Positions 33,759 to 54,892 of a stretch of 64,000 bases of DNA are shown here, in pieces (positions within the stretch are counted from its first letter, which is position 1; each line of letters opens with the position of its first letter). This stretch comes from Microbispora hainanensis. GTDB taxonomy: Bacteria > Actinomycetota > Actinomycetes > Streptosporangiales > Streptosporangiaceae. Position numbers and translations under genes: made by a program. The notes under the pieces were generated by a model that saw nothing but the letters and a program-made list of their open reading frames with translations, was not told the DNA's origin and made no database searches. Location of the stretch: positions 62,001 through 126,000 of the forward strand of contig NZ_VIRM01000018.1 in NCBI RefSeq assembly GCF_006874475.1. The letters run 5' to 3'.

Positions 33759-34715
33759 TCAGGGACCGGTCAGACGGCGCTCGCCCTTCGGGGTGATCAC
33801 GTAGACCTGCCAGGTGTAGTAGGCGTAGTAGTTCCTGATGTCCCGCTTCATCTGGCGTGCGTGCAGCAGGACCGCGTCCACGTACGCGTTGGAGTGGTTG
33901 TAGGCGTACAGCGCGCGCCGATAGTCGCCGGGGGCGCCCGACGCGTGGAGGTAGTTGGCCGCGCCGAGCAGAGCGTCGCCCGTGTCGTCGATGTCGCCGC
34001 CCATGCCGTACGCCTTCCAGGTGCCCGGCATGAACTGCATCGGGCCCTTGGCGCCCACGTAGCTCGGCGAGCGCACCCGCCCGAACTTGGTCTCCACGAG
34101 CATCACCGCCGCCAGCACCTCCCAGTCGACGCCGAACCGGCGTTCGGCGCGCCGGAAGGCGGCGAGCAGGGCGTCGGCGGGCTCGGCCGGCCTGATCTTG
34201 ATCTTGATGGGCCCGCTGACGGGGTGGGCGAGGGAGAGCAGGTCGCGGATGGCCGTCACGTTGTCGCGCGCCCGCGCGGCCGTGTCCTTCGGCAGCTTGG
34301 CGTAGGTGCGGGACGCGACCCCGGGATTGCGGGCGAGATAGCGGTAGACGCGCTGCTCGTACAGGGACAGCAGGACCACCGGCTCGGGCGCCTCCCCCTT
34401 CGCGGGGTCGCCCGTACGTCTCCAGTCGTCGATCGCGTCACGCAGCCGCCCCACCGTGTGGGCGAGGGCGTCGGCCAGTCGCTTGGGGTCCTTGGGGATC
34501 GCCGCGTCCGGCCCGGGCAGGTCCCCTGCCGACGGTTCCGGGCTCGCGAAGGACCGTTCCGGCGCGGTCGGGGTCACGCGCTCGCGGGGAGCGGCCGAGG
34601 CGGCCTCGCCCGCCGCGCCCGCGCATCCCGAGAGCGGGACGACGACGACGGCGAGCACGGCGGCCAGGAGCGTACGGCGCGGCGGCAGCAGGTTCACGGC
34701 AGGCTGATCGTTCAT
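33759..34715 (-). CDS. Lipoprotein lytic transglycosylase (SLT domain)
   Basis: A 318-residue exported lipoprotein. The signal has the lipobox LSGC at about residue 31, so the mature protein would be lipid-anchored outside the membrane. A linker of Ala, Pro and Ser precedes a C-terminal lytic transglycosylase domain: VDWEVLAAVMLVETKFGRVRS (catalytic Glu in VETKFG), AKGPMQFMPGTW and YNHSNAYVDAVLLHAR. It cleaves peptidoglycan glycan strands non-hydrolytically. ATG 34715 is chosen for its placement before the signal. It diverges from the RiPP-like locus. Confidence 0.92.
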   Translation of the reverse strand: MNDQPAVNLLPPRRTLLAAVLAVVVVPLSGCAGAAGEAASAAPRERVTPTAPERSFASPEPSAGDLPGPDAAIPKDPKRLADALAHTVGRLRDAIDDWRRTGDPAKGEAPEPVVLLSLYEQRVYRYLARNPGVASRTYAKLPKDTAARARDNVTAIRDLLSLAHPVSGPIKIKIRPAEPADALLAAFRRAERRFGVDWEVLAAVMLVETKFGRVRSPSYVGAKGPMQFMPGTWKAYGMGGDIDDTGDALLGAANYLHASGAPGDYRRALYAYNHSNAYVDAVLLHARQMKRDIRNYYAYYTWQVYVITPKGERRLTGP

Positions 34716-34830
34716 CGTCACCAACGTATTCCCAGCGGTGACGATCCATGTCCTCTTCACCGGGATGCGACGCCCGTTGTGAGAAAGTGTTTTACGGCCG
34801 ACCCATTTTTCCCCTCCGCGGAATTCGGTG

Positions 34831-34858
34831 TTGACTAGCACACTTATCGCCCACTAAT
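34831..34858 (+). promoter_or_regulatory. Predicted promoter of the E1 enzyme gene, leaderless type
   Basis: TTGACT (34831-34836) and ACTAAT (34853-34858) are spaced by 16 bases. The predicted start of transcription falls within a few bases of GTG 34868, which has no Shine-Dalgarno, so the gene is probably leaderless. Confidence 0.5.
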
Positions 34859-34867
34859 CGTCGTCAC

Positions 34868-35995
34868 GTGCGACTCCCCCGCGTGAAATTCGAACACCGA
34901 CCGCACCGATACGAGGACGGCACCATTCGCATCGGCGGCGAGATTTACGGGATCGCCGCCGAAATCGCGGACCCGGACGGCTGGGTGTGGACGGCCCTCA
35001 CTCTGATGGACGGCACCCGTTCTCGCGAGGAGATCGCCGAACGGCTGCGCCTGGCCCATCCGGAGCTGCCGGACGCGACGTCGGTCGTCGAGGAACTGGC
35101 GGCCACCCGATATGTGGAGGACGCCGCGGCGGCGGCGCCCGCCGGGCTGAGCGAGCGCGAGCTCGACCGCTACAGCAGGAACCACGCGTTCTTCCGCACC
35201 GTCGACGCCGTCCCGCGCGCCCACGGCTGGGAGGTCCAGGTGCGGCTGAAGGCCGCGCGGGTCGTGGTGCTCGGCCTGGGCGGCACGGGCTGCCACGCGG
35301 CCTGGGCCCTCGCCGCCGTCGGCGTCGGCACGATCCACTGCGTGGATCCCGACCTGGTGGAGCTGTCCAACCTCAACCGCCAGGTGCTGTACGGCGAGGC
35401 CGACGTGGGGCGCCCGAAGGCGGAGGCGGCCGTCGACCGGCTCAGGAGCGTCAACTCCGACATCACGGTCACCGGCGAACGCCGCCGCATCGGCAGCAGG
35501 CGCGAGCTGGACGAGCTCATCGCCGGGTATGACGCGCTCGCCCTCTGCGCGGACCAGCCCACGGGGCACGGCCTCAGGGTGTGGGCCAACCGCGCCTGCG
35601 CCGCAGCGAACATCCCCTGGGCCGGTGGCGGATACAGCGGACCGCTGGTCACCGTCGGGTGTTTCGCGCCGGGTGCGGGCGCCTGCTACGAGTGCCTGAG
35701 CAGCGGCGAGGAGGCGCGGCGCCGTCCCGGCACGCCGGTGAACCTCGGCGGGCCCGGCGTGATCGCCACCTCGGCGGGCGTGTCCGGCCAGCTCGTCGCC
35801 CACGCGCTGCTGGGGCTGCTGACCGGGGTGCCCGTGCCGCCGGTCGGCACCATCCAGGGCGTCAACCTGATCGCCGCGGACCACCACGTGTGGGTCCGGC
35901 ATCCGCCGCGCCCCGGCTGCCCGGTGTGCGGGACCCGGGCCATCGGCCCGGCACACAAATCGACGCGGGAAATGACCGAAAAAGACGCCCACTGA
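34868..35995 (+). CDS. ThiF/MoeB-type E1 adenylating enzyme with N-terminal peptide-binding-like domain
   Basis: This 375-residue enzyme has a winged-helix N-terminal region (about 1-95) resembling a RiPP recognition element and an E1-like adenylation domain from 99 on. RYSRN at 101-105 begins that domain, GLGGTG at 136-141 binds ATP, CVDPDLVELSNLNRQ (158-172) supplies the metal-binding Asp and Arg finger, and CADQP (227-231) is the crossover region. Two zinc knuckles, CYEC (273-276) and CPVC (351-354), are complete. The order clamp domain, adenylation domain, zinc site matches microcin C MccB. It adenylates or amidates a peptide rather than a sulfur carrier, since no thiamine or molybdopterin gene is near. 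The precursor-like peptide is encoded 99 bases downstream. Confidence 0.88.
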   Translation: MRLPRVKFEHRPHRYEDGTIRIGGEIYGIAAEIADPDGWVWTALTLMDGTRSREEIAERLRLAHPELPDATSVVEELAATRYVEDAAAAAPAGLSERELDRYSRNHAFFRTVDAVPRAHGWEVQVRLKAARVVVLGLGGTGCHAAWALAAVGVGTIHCVDPDLVELSNLNRQVLYGEADVGRPKAEAAVDRLRSVNSDITVTGERRRIGSRRELDELIAGYDALALCADQPTGHGLRVWANRACAAANIPWAGGGYSGPLVTVGCFAPGAGACYECLSSGEEARRRPGTPVNLGGPGVIATSAGVSGQLVAHALLGLLTGVPVPPVGTIQGVNLIAADHHVWVRHPPRPGCPVCGTRAIGPAHKSTREMTEKDAH

Positions 35996-36012
35996 ATAAA
36001 GAGACAGAGGTC

Positions 36013-36073
36013 TTGACCGCTCCGGTCAACAGACGAATCATGAACGCGTTCTCTCGAGAACATCCATGTTCTC
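36013..36073 (+). promoter_or_regulatory. Internal promoter and operator region of the peptide gene
   Basis: TTGACC (36013-36018) with AATCAT (36036-36041) makes a possible promoter. The -35 is one arm of TTGACC-N5-GGTCAA (36013-36029). Downstream lie a perfect palindrome GTTCTCTCGAGAAC (36048-36061) and a further half site GTTCTC (36068-36073), all before the peptide start at 36095. Together they suggest repressor control of peptide expression. Confidence 0.5.
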
Positions 36074-36094
36074 TCCCCTCCAGAGAGGAATCGG

Positions 36095-36220
36095 ATGAAC
36101 ACGAACGAGCACGAGACCGAACCCGTCGACGAGGCGGCCGCACCACCGAAGACGAAGATCACCATTCGGCTTCTCGACAAGATCGAGACCACGACCAGCA
36201 GCAACAGCGTCGGCAACTGA
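36095..36220 (+). CDS. Putative RiPP precursor peptide
   Basis: A 41-residue peptide begins at ATG 36095, with AGAGAGGAA seven bases upstream. It has three parts: an acidic N-terminus (MNTNEHETEPVDEAAAPPK), a beta-strand-like segment KITIRLLDKI that could dock on a recognition element, and a polar C-terminus ETTTSSNSVGN. It contains no Cys and ends in Asn, the residue modified by MccB in microcin C. It lies between the E1 enzyme and the other cluster genes and is followed by a strong hairpin, the usual layout of RiPP precursors. It matches no family I know, so it is a candidate only. Confidence 0.75.
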   Translation: MNTNEHETEPVDEAAAPPKTKITIRLLDKIETTTSSNSVGN

Positions 36221-36227
36221 CGAAGTG

Positions 36228-36277
36228 CCGGCCGCGGCGTACGGGGTGCCGCGTGGCCCCTCGCGCGCCGCGGCCGG
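36228..36277 (+). terminator. Strong stem-loop after the peptide gene, probable partial terminator
   Basis: CCGGCCGCGGCG (36228-36239) and CGCCGCGGCCGG (36266-36277) form a perfect 12-bp stem, and the 26-base loop holds a second GGGG/CCCC stem. There is no U tract, so termination would be incomplete and RNA protection is equally possible. It separates the peptide from the downstream genes. Confidence 0.7.
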
Positions 36278-36314
36278 TGCGAGCCCGCACACGCCGTAGC
36301 CCAGGGAGGGAAGG

Positions 36315-36986
36315 GTGGCACACGCCGGAGACGTCTTCGACGACATACGGCAGGCCGAGGCGCCGGTGCTGTCCGCCGACGCCTACCAGGCCGAGTTCGC
36401 CGAAGAGTTCGAGCGGTCCACCGAGGGGGTGTGGAAGCTCGAACGCGCGCAGGAGTTCTTCGAACCCGACGTGGCGAGCTGGCGGGCGATGATGGCGGGC
36501 GAATGGGAGCGGTCGCTCGCCATGCTCGACGAGCTGCGGGAGGCCCTCGCCGGCTACTACCGGACCCGGCCCCAGGCTCACCGGGTCCGCGTCGTGGAGA
36601 CGCCGTTCACCCCCTATCTCCAGTGGGAGCTCAACGTCCTGGCCGTGCGGGCCGCGGCGGGCGAGCGCCCCCGGGCGCTCCACGCCGACGCCGTACGGGA
36701 GCTGGAGCGCGACGGGCCGCTGCCCGAGATCGTCGTGCTCGGCTCCTCGCTGCTCTACGAGGTGCTGTACGACGAGATCGGCGGCCACGTGGGCGCGCGG
36801 AGGATCACCGATTCCCGCCTCGTCGGCCGCTGCCTGGCCGCGATCAAGGAGCTTTACGGCCGGGCGGAGGACATGCGGACCTACGTCGAGCGAGAGGTCG
36901 CCCCGCTGCCGCCGCCCACGATCTCCGGACGTACGCGCGAGCTCCTGCCCCGCTTCTCCCACCACACCGGGACCTTCCGCCCCTGA
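36315..36986 (+). CDS. DUF6879-type protein
   Basis: A 223-residue soluble protein that starts at GTG 36315 after GGGAGGGAAGG. The segments VWKLERAQEFFEPDVASWRAMMAGEWERSL, RVRVVETPFTPYLQWELNVL and the Arg/Ala-rich central part resemble the actinomycete DUF6879 family, often found next to XRE/DUF397 regulators. Its biochemical role is not known. Its position between the peptide and the M50 protease, in one transcription unit, suggests peptide handling or a signalling partner. An ELLPRFSHHTG tail is unusual. I see no catalytic motif. Confidence 0.75.
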   Translation: MAHAGDVFDDIRQAEAPVLSADAYQAEFAEEFERSTEGVWKLERAQEFFEPDVASWRAMMAGEWERSLAMLDELREALAGYYRTRPQAHRVRVVETPFTPYLQWELNVLAVRAAAGERPRALHADAVRELERDGPLPEIVVLGSSLLYEVLYDEIGGHVGARRITDSRLVGRCLAAIKELYGRAEDMRTYVEREVAPLPPPTISGRTRELLPRFSHHTGTFRP

Positions 36987-37026
36987 CACCGGCCGTACGC
37001 CGTGGAGCCCACGTCTGGAGGTCACG

Positions 37027-38241
37027 GTGACCCAGGACTCCGGTGAGACGAGGGCCCGCGCCGAGGTCCGGCTGCGCGACCTCGCGTTCCGCCGGGACGG
37101 CGACCAATGGATCGTCGGCCGTCCCGGCGGCGAGGACTTCGTCGCCGTGCCGTACGAGGGGATGCGGGCCATCCGGCTGCTGTCGGCGGGCGCCACGGTC
37201 GAGGAGACCGAACGGCGGCTGCACGCCGAGACAGGCGTCCACCTCGACGTCCGCGGTTTTGTCCGCGTCCTCGGCGAGCTCGGCTTCCTCGACGAGCCCG
37301 GCGGTCCGGTCGCCCTCCCCCGGCGTCCGACCTTCCCCTGGCTGCGCCCCGAGCACGTGCGGTGGACGCTGCACCCGCTGGTCCACCTGCTGGTCGCGGT
37401 CCTGGTCGCCGCCGGAATCGTGACGGCGGTCGCGCGCCGGGACACGCTGCCGGGCTGGCACGACCTGCTGTGGAACGCGCACGGCACGCTCGTGCTCGCC
37501 TCGCAGATCGCGGCCGGCTGGACGTTGATCTTCCTGCACGAGACGGCCCACCTGTCCACCGCCAGGGCCGCCGGGGTGCCGGGCAGGATCCGGCTCGGCA
37601 CCCGGCTGCAGTTCCTGGCCGTCCAGACCGTGGTGTCCGGCGTGTGGCTGGCCGAGCGGCGCGTCCGCCTGACCGTCTACCTCGCCGGAATGGCCGTGGA
37701 CGCCGCGGCCTGCTCGGCCGCGCTCCTGCTGACCGCCGCTGTGGGGCGCCATCCCGCGCTGTCGCTGGTCGCGCTGACCTCGCTCACCATGCTGGCCACG
37801 CAGTTCCTGGTGTTCATGCGCACCGACGTCTACTTCCTGCTCCAGGATCTGAGCGGGTGCCGCAACATGTACGGCGACGCCTCCGCCTACGTCCGCCACC
37901 TGGCGCTGCGGTCGCTGCGCCGTCCTTCCCCGGACCCGCTGGCCGGGCTGCCGCGCCGGGAGCGCCGCAGCCTCCGGGCGTACGCCGCGCTGCTGGTCGT
38001 GGGCACCACGGCCTGCCTGGGGGTGGCGTTCGCGGTTACGGGGCCGGCGACGCTGACACTGCTCGGCCGGGCCGCGAACACGCTGATCGCCCCCGCGGAT
38101 CCGCTCGCCGCGCTGGACGCCGCGGCGGTGCTGCTGTCCGTGGTCGCGTTCCAGGCGGTCTGGGCGCGGGCGTGGTGGCGCAGGCACGGCCCCCGCGTAC
38201 GGCGCGCGCTGCGCCGGCGAGCCGGTCAGGACCCCGCGTAG
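37027..38241 (+). CDS. PqqD-like/M50 membrane zinc metalloprotease
   Basis: This 404-residue protein has a cytoplasmic PqqD-like winged-helix domain at about 10-95 (RLRDLAFRRDGDQWIVGRPGG, FVRVLGELGFLDEP), then about six to seven membrane helices. HETAH at 171-175 in the second helix (LIFLHETAHLSTARAAG) is the zinc site of site-2-type M50 peptidases. A later Asp (D267 in MRTDVYFLLQDL) is a possible third ligand. Such fusions (YydH-like) mature or export peptides in RiPP systems. GTG 37027 has GGAGG upstream. Its 3' end overlaps the convergent SDR gene by 16 bases. It probably cleaves the precursor or a signalling peptide. Confidence 0.85.
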   Translation: MTQDSGETRARAEVRLRDLAFRRDGDQWIVGRPGGEDFVAVPYEGMRAIRLLSAGATVEETERRLHAETGVHLDVRGFVRVLGELGFLDEPGGPVALPRRPTFPWLRPEHVRWTLHPLVHLLVAVLVAAGIVTAVARRDTLPGWHDLLWNAHGTLVLASQIAAGWTLIFLHETAHLSTARAAGVPGRIRLGTRLQFLAVQTVVSGVWLAERRVRLTVYLAGMAVDAAACSAALLLTAAVGRHPALSLVALTSLTMLATQFLVFMRTDVYFLLQDLSGCRNMYGDASAYVRHLALRSLRRPSPDPLAGLPRRERRSLRAYAALLVVGTTACLGVAFAVTGPATLTLLGRAANTLIAPADPLAALDAAAVLLSVVAFQAVWARAWWRRHGPRVRRALRRRAGQDPA

Positions 38242-39110
38242 GAGCCGGTGGTCAGCTCCTCGATCAGCCCGGGGCCCGCGGGGGACCAGCCGTACAGGCG
38301 GCGGGCGCGCGAGGCGTCCAGCGGCGACGAACGGGTGAGCGTGGCGGCGAGCGGCCCCATCGCGGCGGTTCCCTGCTCCAGCGTGAGCGACACGGCCTGG
38401 GCGCCGGTCAGGGCGGCGGCGGCCTCGGCGATCCGCCGCATCGGGGTCCGCTCGGCCGACGCGGCGTTGACGACGGCACCCGGCCCGCCGTGCTCCAGCG
38501 CGGCGACGTACAGCGCCGCGAGGTCGTCGACGTGCACCGACGACCACTCGTTGGCGCCATCGCCGATGTAGGGCACCATCCCGTTCTGCCTGCCGGCGCC
38601 GATGAGCCCCTGGAGCAGGCCCGACCCGCCGCGCCCGTAGACCAGCGCCGCCCGGATCACCGTGCCCGCCACGTGGCCGGCGTCGAGGACCTGCCGCTCG
38701 CCGAGGACCTTGTAGGGCTGGGGCGACGTCTCGGGGGCGACGGGGTGGTCCTCGTCCACGGTCGCGCCCTGCCGGTCGGGGTAGACCAGGCCCGTGCTGG
38801 TGTAGACGAACCGGCCGCCCGCGTTCAGGCCGTCCAGCAGCGCCGCGAGGGCGTCGCGCTCGATGTCGCCCATCTCGGGATCGGTGTAGTCGACGGCGGT
38901 GTGCACGACGGCCTCGGCCGCCGCGGCGGCGCCGCGCAGGGCGGCGAGGTCGCGCAGGCTTCCGGACACCGCCTTGGCGCCCAGCGCTTCGACCCGCTCC
39001 CGGGCCCGGCCGGACCGGGCCAGGGCGACCACCTCGTGCCCGGCCCTGACGAGGTGCTCGGCCACGGCTCCGCCGACGTAGCCGCTCGCACCCGTGATGA
39101 GAACGCGCAT
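38226..39110 (-). CDS. NAD(P)-dependent epimerase/dehydratase (SDR)
   Basis: A 294-residue extended SDR: GASGYVGGAVAEHLV (7-13 motif GxxGxxG), VVHTAVDYTDPEMGD, FVYTSTGLVYPD with the active-site Ser/Thr region and a Tyr-Lys pair (SPQPYKVLGERQ) that deviates from strict YxxxK. Substrates are likely non-sugar or NADPH-linked small carbonyls, as in many atypical actinomycete SDRs. It diverges from an MmyB-type HTH regulator gene at 39271, a pairing frequent in actinomycetes, and is probably its target. Confidence 0.88.
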   Translation of the reverse strand: MRVLITGASGYVGGAVAEHLVRAGHEVVALARSGRARERVEALGAKAVSGSLRDLAALRGAAAAAEAVVHTAVDYTDPEMGDIERDALAALLDGLNAGGRFVYTSTGLVYPDRQGATVDEDHPVAPETSPQPYKVLGERQVLDAGHVAGTVIRAALVYGRGGSGLLQGLIGAGRQNGMVPYIGDGANEWSSVHVDDLAALYVAALEHGGPGAVVNAASAERTPMRRIAEAAAALTGAQAVSLTLEQGTAAMGPLAATLTRSSPLDASRARRLYGWSPAGPGLIEELTTGSYAGS

Positions 39111-54799: not shown

Positions 54800-54892
54800 G
54801 TCACACAATCTAGTGACAATACTGGGCGGTTTCTGTCCGGTATCCGCCCTAGTGTTCCCGGGAGAACGACCCCGGGAACCAGGGAGATCACC

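Follow-up and report, generated by a model that had tools for sequence, protein, structure and literature searches.

A four-gene Microbispora locus that probably makes a ribosomal peptide with a ThiF-type enzyme

What might a bacterium make with a ThiF-type activating enzyme, a peptide of 41 amino acids, a DUF6879 protein and a membrane protease, when the four genes are packed one behind another on a single strand? The question is raised by a stretch of 64,000 nucleotides from Microbispora hainanensis (contig NZ_VIRM01000018.1, positions 62,001 to 126,000; hereafter, the window), part of a genome of 8.7 Mb. A model that had only the letters to go by (we refer to its account as the sequence-only reading) saw in these genes a logical set for making and maturing a modified peptide. 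Here, we have followed up that suggestion computationally, and we put the probability at roughly 0.88 that the locus makes a ribosomally synthesized and post-translationally modified peptide (RiPP) by way of adenylation through an E1 enzyme guided by a RiPP recognition element (RRE), closure of a ring or imide, and removal of the leader by a protease with an RRE of its own.

All of the proposed frames were found, at 34868 to 38241 on the + strand, with a divergent SLT transglycosylase gene on one side and a convergent epimerase gene on the other:

34868..35995, +: E1/ThiF-type adenylyltransferase with a predicted N-terminal RRE, 375 amino acids, GTG start (Pfam ThiF, profile matches, conserved residues)
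36095..36220, +: putative precursor peptide MNTNEHETEPVDEAAAPPKTKITIRLLDKIETTTSSNSVGN, 41 amino acids (precursor family, purifying selection, whole-genome profile search)
36315..36986, +: DUF6879 protein, 223 amino acids, with a predicted phospholipase-D-like fold that lacks HxK (Pfam 5.1e-33, AlphaFold2 model, fold matches)
37027..38241, +: predicted RRE-fused site-2-type intramembrane metalloprotease, 404 amino acids (AlphaFold2 model, fold matches, conserved residues)

A small peptide and its family

How much can be built on so short a frame? In contigs of GTDB genomes, we found 74 E1 loci, 71 of them with 52–91% identity; three weak Streptomyces matches (L247–L249, 27–30% identity) are excluded from every count. 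The peptide family has the motif I-x-I-R-x-L-x-x-x-E-T followed by a short variable core. A strict form of the motif occurs on the gene strand in 59 of the 71 named E1 loci, compared with 1 of 71 on the opposite strand and 0–3 of 71 in ten shuffles, and a profile built from 28 precursors, all Glu-bearing, finds the peptide in 64 of the 71. A profile search of whole genomes gave E-values down to 2.7e-17. The motif and core are under purifying selection (dN 0–0.062 and dS 0–0.434 against ten Microbispora orthologues), and the N-terminal part of the peptide is looser (dN 0.07–0.23). Taken together, the E-values, the selection and the locus counts set against their controls rule out a chance frame. 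The window peptide has a leader containing ITIRLLDKIET, a core of about TTSSNSVGN and a last residue of Asn, and the leader-like and core-like parts that the sequence-only reading saw in it are borne out across the family: a leader and core normally look like a conserved strand-like block and then a variable tail. The core is nearly constant within Microbispora, and cores diversify between genera.

Across all loci and both strands, the strict pattern gave 69 distinct tails, one of which falls within an unrelated coding frame, and plasmids gave four more; the statistics here are on 72 tails, in which Glu, Arg or Lys, and Thr, Ala or Ser after the Glu had been demanded by the search pattern. Where the pattern left a choice, position 6 is Leu rather than Ile, Val or Met in 72 of 72, Arg is taken over Lys by 70 to 2, and Thr is taken over Ala or Ser after the Glu in 69 of 72. 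The core is 6–11 residues long and variable in sequence, and four cores lack Ser, Thr, Cys and Lys altogether. Tails end in Asn (35 of 72), Gly (13) or Ser (11), among other residues, and the five further tails found by profile also end in Asn.

These five are all from Nonomuraea (L217, L218, L220, L223 and L224) and replace ET(T) with EPT (twice), GPT (twice) or GAA (once). The notion of a strictly invariant Glu was accordingly dropped: the strict pattern had demanded the Glu, and the profile scan found precursors with Gly instead. When it is not demanded, Glu stands at the motif place in 49 of 57 distinct gene-strand frames, compared with none of the 4 on the opposite strand.

The sequence-only reading had also called for a check on whether the four genes keep company. 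Within the genus they do: an E1 orthologue (84–100% identity) is present in 13 of the 15 genomes searched, and E1, peptide, DUF6879 and M50 genes follow in order in 11 of these 13 (in four of the 11, the fetched piece stops before the M50 gene does). In the other two, E1 stands alone after a deletion that takes out everything from the peptide through the M50 gene, save for a 64-base remnant in one. Deletions from precursor to protease are seen in L178 (M. rosea) and L039 (genome G009), and L178 retains the palindrome described below and the precursor start. Across the 71 loci the claim does not carry over, with DUF6879 in 37 and the protease in 30 within the fetched stretch; neither is an obligate neighbour.

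Two proteins that could hold the leader

What kind of enzyme is the E1? Pfam gives ThiF at 9.7e-49 and a sub-cutoff match to PaaA-like_N at 8.1e-4. A profile of 13 E1s has as its best solved structures MccB (1e-41) and PaaA (9e-41), then MoeB (1e-37) and ThiF (1e-34), and the E1 groups by profile with the RiPP enzymes. The MccB and PaaA alignments span profile positions 3–204, and the one to PaaA runs from PaaA residue 7 through its N-terminal domain, pointing to a predicted RRE at the N-terminus of the E1. In an alignment of 123 E1 rows (105 distinct, and not independent, since named and unnamed loci overlap in the same genomes), R171 and K184 are kept in every row and D229 in all but one. 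We take these, by motif position only, as the likely counterparts of essential residues in EnfB, and the ATP-site and adenylation residues are intact. The sole exception at D229 is a solitary E1 on contig C1 of the same genome (L037, G000:C1:131219-132292), which has Gly at that position (CAGEP); such a second, solitary E1, about 55–60% identical and with no precursor nearby, occurs in several Microbispora (L037, L213, L214, L216, L239 and L240).

One might ask whether this is simply a housekeeping E1 (for a sulfur carrier or a ubiquitin-like protein) or part of an E1–E2 anti-phage system, with a small frame beside it by chance. The ThiF domain does match MoeB and ThiF models and, partly, the E1–E2 models of PADLOC, but the NCBIfam matches listed all lie far below their cut-offs, and the small frame is found again in 64 of the 71 loci, prefers its own strand and is held by purifying selection. 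The sequence-only reading had named two warning signs, a link to thiamine or molybdopterin genes and an absence of the peptide from homologous loci; the peptide is there, and no such link was recognised in the 40 conserved neighbour groups listed after BLAST grouping in 70 loci, in which seven proteins were given Pfam names. We have rejected the housekeeping or defence explanation, which we find hardly credible.

The protease was called PqqD-like/M50, a weak call by sequence that is upheld by the fold and the active site. In its AlphaFold2 model (confidence score pLDDT 90.1), residues 12–90 match leader-bound lasso RREs (Z 9.9, 79 residues, 2.4–2.5 Å), residues 102–281 match SpoIVFB (Z 8.5, 127 residues), and residues 102–322 match an archaeal site-2 protease (S2P; Z 7.7, 122 residues). 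Foldseek by itself gives a weak result (best E 0.043), yet it ranks the same RREs first. HExxH and a distal Asp (H171, E172, H175 and D267) are kept in 39 of 39 aligned homologues. An RRE joined to a site-2-protease membrane core is the architecture that the model upholds.

Do described systems already account for this set? An adenylation core with an intact ATP site, an RRE predicted on the E1 and an adjacent leader–core precursor are the marks of a ThiF-type RiPP, and the locus has them. The RRE–ThiF reactions known in the literature compared are few (MccB, PaaA, GrcB, EnfB and IndF).

The most obvious model is microcin C. MccB, the top solved-structure match, has a ThiF adenylation core behind an RRE-like N-terminal domain, and many tails here end in Asn, as in MccA, so that one might imagine the E1 making a peptidyl-nucleotide, by attaching a nucleotide at the core's C-terminus, with DUF6879 as immunity. 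The window peptide and the five profile-found tails do end in Asn, as do 35 of the 72 strict ones, but the other 37 end in other residues and C-terminal Asn is not conserved. The precursor here is a 41-residue leader–core peptide with I-x-I-R-x-L...ET, an RRE–S2P protease and DUF6879 take the place of the McC gene set, and from the SLT transglycosylase to the epimerase there is no McC-type exporter or tailoring gene. We regard a microcin-C-like pathway as distinctly improbable.

PaaA of pantocin A aligns over the RRE and ThiF core (9e-41, with the sub-cutoff PaaA-like_N match), and the core of pantocin A is Glu-Glu-Asn, which is absent from the window peptide and the tails listed; the present locus differs, too, in having a leader-type motif ahead of the core, a protease and DUF6879. 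EnfB requires the leader motif (V/I)RKA, which the I-R of the present precursors brings to mind, and activates the C-terminus (PMC12250964), as does IndF, whose protease IndP is of the M16 type (PMC12150305). Both are RRE–ThiF enzymes; in contrast to the enterofaecin and indolylamide systems, our locus is actinobacterial with an RRE-fused S2P, and the C-terminal WWIVI of enterofaecin and NWYFI of Ind are absent from the window peptide and the tails listed. Among the daptides, MpaP is an RRE-dependent intramembrane peptidase that removes the leader (PMC10036551). Our protease shares that architecture, but it matches the NCBIfam model daptide_HExxH at 22.5 bits, far under the cut-off of 300 bits, and beside the window locus (again, SLT transglycosylase to epimerase), there are no daptide modification genes, including those for the C-terminal amine-forming enzymes. 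The M50 protease EpeP is thought both to cleave and to export, and TMcin (PMC13252029) is a different system.

The sequence-only reading held that the combination fits no named RiPP class. That is largely right. The precursor family, the RRE–S2P next to a ThiF-type enzyme and DUF6879 fit no described subclass in the papers compared, but RiPPs of the RRE–ThiF kind are already known, so this is a new subclass rather than a wholly new kind. PMC12150305 places several further RRE–ThiF clusters in supplementary Figure S1, and the locus family may be among them. We found no literature on DUF6879 (most subscription papers and supplements lay outside the search scope) and no description under the motif strings LDKIETT, RRLDKIE and RLLDKIE or under ThiF RiPPs with the family and genus names.

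Which carboxylate, which nucleophile and what partner

From gene content, conservation, predicted folds and intact catalytic residues, we infer a substrate, a chemistry and an order of steps. The peptide is presumably the substrate of the E1, as co-occurrence, the shared leader-like motif and the presence of two RRE-bearing proteins suggest. Expressed from its own promoter, the precursor would bind the RRE of the E1 through the leader strand I-x-I-R-x-L, and the E1 would use ATP to adenylate one of its carboxylates, most likely at the C-terminus; the conserved Glu side chain is a less probable target. Attack by a nucleophile within the peptide, with water lost, would then give a macrolactone, macrolactam or imide. 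At the membrane, the RRE–S2P would bind the same leader and cut near the border between ET-T and the core, and the product would be released and perhaps exported; one lineage may have added a transporter (11 loci carry an upstream gene of the major facilitator superfamily, or MFS, group, and in 9 of these the peptide precedes the E1; one representative was named by Pfam). DUF6879 would serve as a binding partner dedicated to the peptide, be it receptor, immunity or carrier.

We favour the C-terminal carboxylate because EnfB and IndF activate the C-terminus and because some precursors have no Glu. As for the nucleophile, Thr or Ser comes directly after the Glu in all but one precursor found, and since four cores have no other Ser, Thr, Cys or Lys, this residue would be the most general side-chain candidate. 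It is tempting to go further and to imagine that the E1 joins the C-terminal carboxylate to this border Thr/Ser in a lactone-type, autoinducer-like ring, which the RRE–S2P frees and DUF6879 receives, making a Streptosporangiaceae-wide signal and a distinct class in the Actinomycetota; we offer this as a speculation and think it unlikely.

But what if the Glu itself were the target? Its side chain would be adenylated in the manner of PaaA or GrcB, the ring would be internal, and ET would belong to the core and not to the leader. The frequency of Glu where it is not demanded, the Thr or Ser within two positions after it in all 72 strict tails, the alignment of PaaA over RRE and ATP core and the precedent of GrcB, which joins an internal Glu to Cys, speak for this, but the Gly-for-Glu precursors, unless decayed, speak against it (two of the three, L220 and L224, adjoin both E1 and DUF6879), and the Glu block is continuous with the RRE-type strand and may be a recognition or cleavage sequence. 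Side-chain activation strikes us as unlikely.

Some observations also weigh against the RRE-guided RiPP pathway that we prefer. Gly occupies the Glu place in three Nonomuraea precursors. Even by profile, seven named loci out of 71 show no precursor: five belong to solitary E1s of Microbispora, one is M. rosea with its deletion, and one, L246, is a partial E1 match. The C-terminal residue varies, which would be unusual if the C-terminus were strictly recognised. The M50 identity of the protease is weak by sequence (Pfam Peptidase_M50 only 0.2), and the window locus has no exporter.

What, then, is DUF6879? Pfam assigns the family at 5.1e-33, and the AlphaFold2 model (pLDDT 88.7) best matches Nuc 1byr (Z 9.8, 134 residues, 4.2 Å), followed by PLD3, F13, TrmBL2 and FAM83B; the top rows share one fold, that of the phospholipase D (PLD) superfamily. 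Root-mean-square deviations are 4.2–4.5 Å over 134–145 aligned residues and Foldseek E-values 8e-4 to 1.1e-3 for the best three, a moderate match, given that in the fold tool's own check, best Z values of 7–8 are attained even by models that match nothing clearly. The catalytic PLD (HKD) motif is HxKx4D. Because HxK occurs in 0 of 26 homologues, DUF6879 is not a classical PLD enzyme, and we have rejected a catalytic role of that kind. FAM83 and the TrmB effector domain are PLD-superfamily proteins without catalysis; they share the fold with DUF6879 (Z 7.5–9.2), which differs in being genetically tied to a small peptide gene.

That tie does not depend on the E1. A cluster of the C203 type has two precursors, each with its own DUF6879, and in another Microbispora genome, the 3.1 kb retrieved contain a precursor paired with DUF6879 but no E1. 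A PLD-like fold without His-Lys, found beside precursors even where E1 does not adjoin, is why we think that DUF6879 is probably a dedicated binding partner of the small peptides or their products; a role as receptor, immunity or carrier would fit the data equally well. On the E1 tree (63 of the 71 loci), the presence of DUF6879 needs 9 changes, at least 7 of them forced by supported branches, and this is repeated association or loss. The idea that core type decides the presence of DUF6879 was dropped, as similar cores (YSGNSNS) occur both with and without it. Precursor–DUF6879 pairs in which no E1 adjoins the precursor were seen at L148:1501-1629 and following and at L036:3465-3590 (−), with tails ...ETSACSNSTGN and ...ETAVCSNSTGN.

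Outside E1 loci, DUF6879 follows a different small frame. Its motif reads WxLxNGDIA(V/I)IGRDLT (L038 upstream of 5963; L250:4718-4987; L254:3769-3960), and in Kitasatospora (L250), DUF6879 starts a protein of 1014 amino acids, the rest of which reads by eye, rather than by profile, like a P-loop/TPR regulator. Might DUF6879, as a pseudo-PLD associated with regulators, sense the E1-modified peptide as a signal? Such a role is compatible with the RiPP pathway. It draws on that other small frame, the Kitasatospora fusion, the near-constant core within Microbispora and the DUF6879-like fold of TrmB-family regulators, but the window locus has no regulator gene, and the diversification of cores between genera also fits products with varied targets. 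We hold peptide signalling to be possible, if on the whole unlikely.

Control signals, distribution and what the locus offers

The locus was also said to have its own control signals, and conservation agrees:

34831..34860, +: putative E1 gene promoter, TTGACT at 34831-34836 and CTAATC/TAATCG near 34854-34860 (read from the sequence, conservation)
36013..36041, +: putative precursor gene promoter, TTGACC, 17 nucleotides, AATCAT (promoter scan, conservation)
36048..36061, +: operator-like palindrome GTTCTCTCGAGAAC, close to where transcription should start (conservation, shuffles)

TTGAC(T/C) is kept upstream of both E1 and peptide in 12 of 12 aligned orthologous loci. A consensus promoter scan leaves the E1 promoter below its threshold and finds the precursor promoter as the sole promoter-like site in 34600–38500 (shuffles mean 0.1). 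The GTG start lies a few bases past the E1 promoter, so the E1 transcript may be leaderless. Past the peptide promoter, 10 of the 12 loci carry the palindrome GTTCTCNNGAGAAC without a change; with one mismatch allowed, shuffles give a mean of 0.07 per 64 kb, and an extended pattern occurs once in the whole genome. A copy with one mismatch lies at window positions 54854–54867.

How widely is such a locus spread? Within the taxonomic family, a cut-off of E 1e-50 places the E1 family in 62 of 200 genomes, representing 20 of 68 genera, and in a class-wide draw, it is found in at least 13 of 394 genomes, at least 3 of them outside the family (lower bounds, since five candidates were scored per genome at that threshold). 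Two of the 71 loci are from Streptomyces (L225 and L228) and the others from genera such as Microbispora, Planotetraspora, Herbidospora, Nonomuraea, Microtetraspora and Sphaerisporangium. Their gene orders are E1>peptide>DUF6879 (15 loci), E1>peptide>DUF6879>M50 (14), E1>peptide (9), E1 alone (8), peptide>E1>M50 (8), peptide>E1 (6), E1>peptide>M50>DUF6879>peptide>DUF6879 (3), E1>DUF6879 (3), E1>peptide>M50>DUF6879 (2), E1>peptide>M50 (2) and E1>M50 (1). Seventeen loci (including L188–L191, L193, L194, L196, L198, L200–L202 and L205–L207) share a chromosomal site across genera, beside an aconitase-like gene (recognised by eye) and genes for YdjM, PadR and DUF1707 proteins.

More distant E1s with a comparable layout lie on plasmids of Streptomyces, Actinacidiphila and Nocardia, where the annotation reads "ThiF family adenylyltransferase" and, in Nocardia, also "site-2 protease family protein." On the plasmid of Streptomyces sp. 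NBC_00464 (L251:7437-7700), the E1 and protease are followed by two tandem precursors with Cys-bearing cores, with a gene for an MMPL transporter close by. In the three plasmid loci examined, the precursor is unannotated (the gene table is incomplete), and the window precursor matched no NCBIfam model at E 1. A pathway whose precursor is thus without a model and unlisted as a gene is easily overlooked.

RRE–ThiF enzymes are a young family among those that modify RiPPs. The locus family offers them dozens of distinct natural substrates with a clear recognition motif, a minimal test system of two genes (E1 and precursor) and a protease with its own predicted RRE, and the divergent Nonomuraea precursors (EPT, GPT and GAA) are a natural test of how much the Glu matters. 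DUF6879, for its part, gains a concrete handle: a predicted pseudo-PLD fold paired with small peptides.

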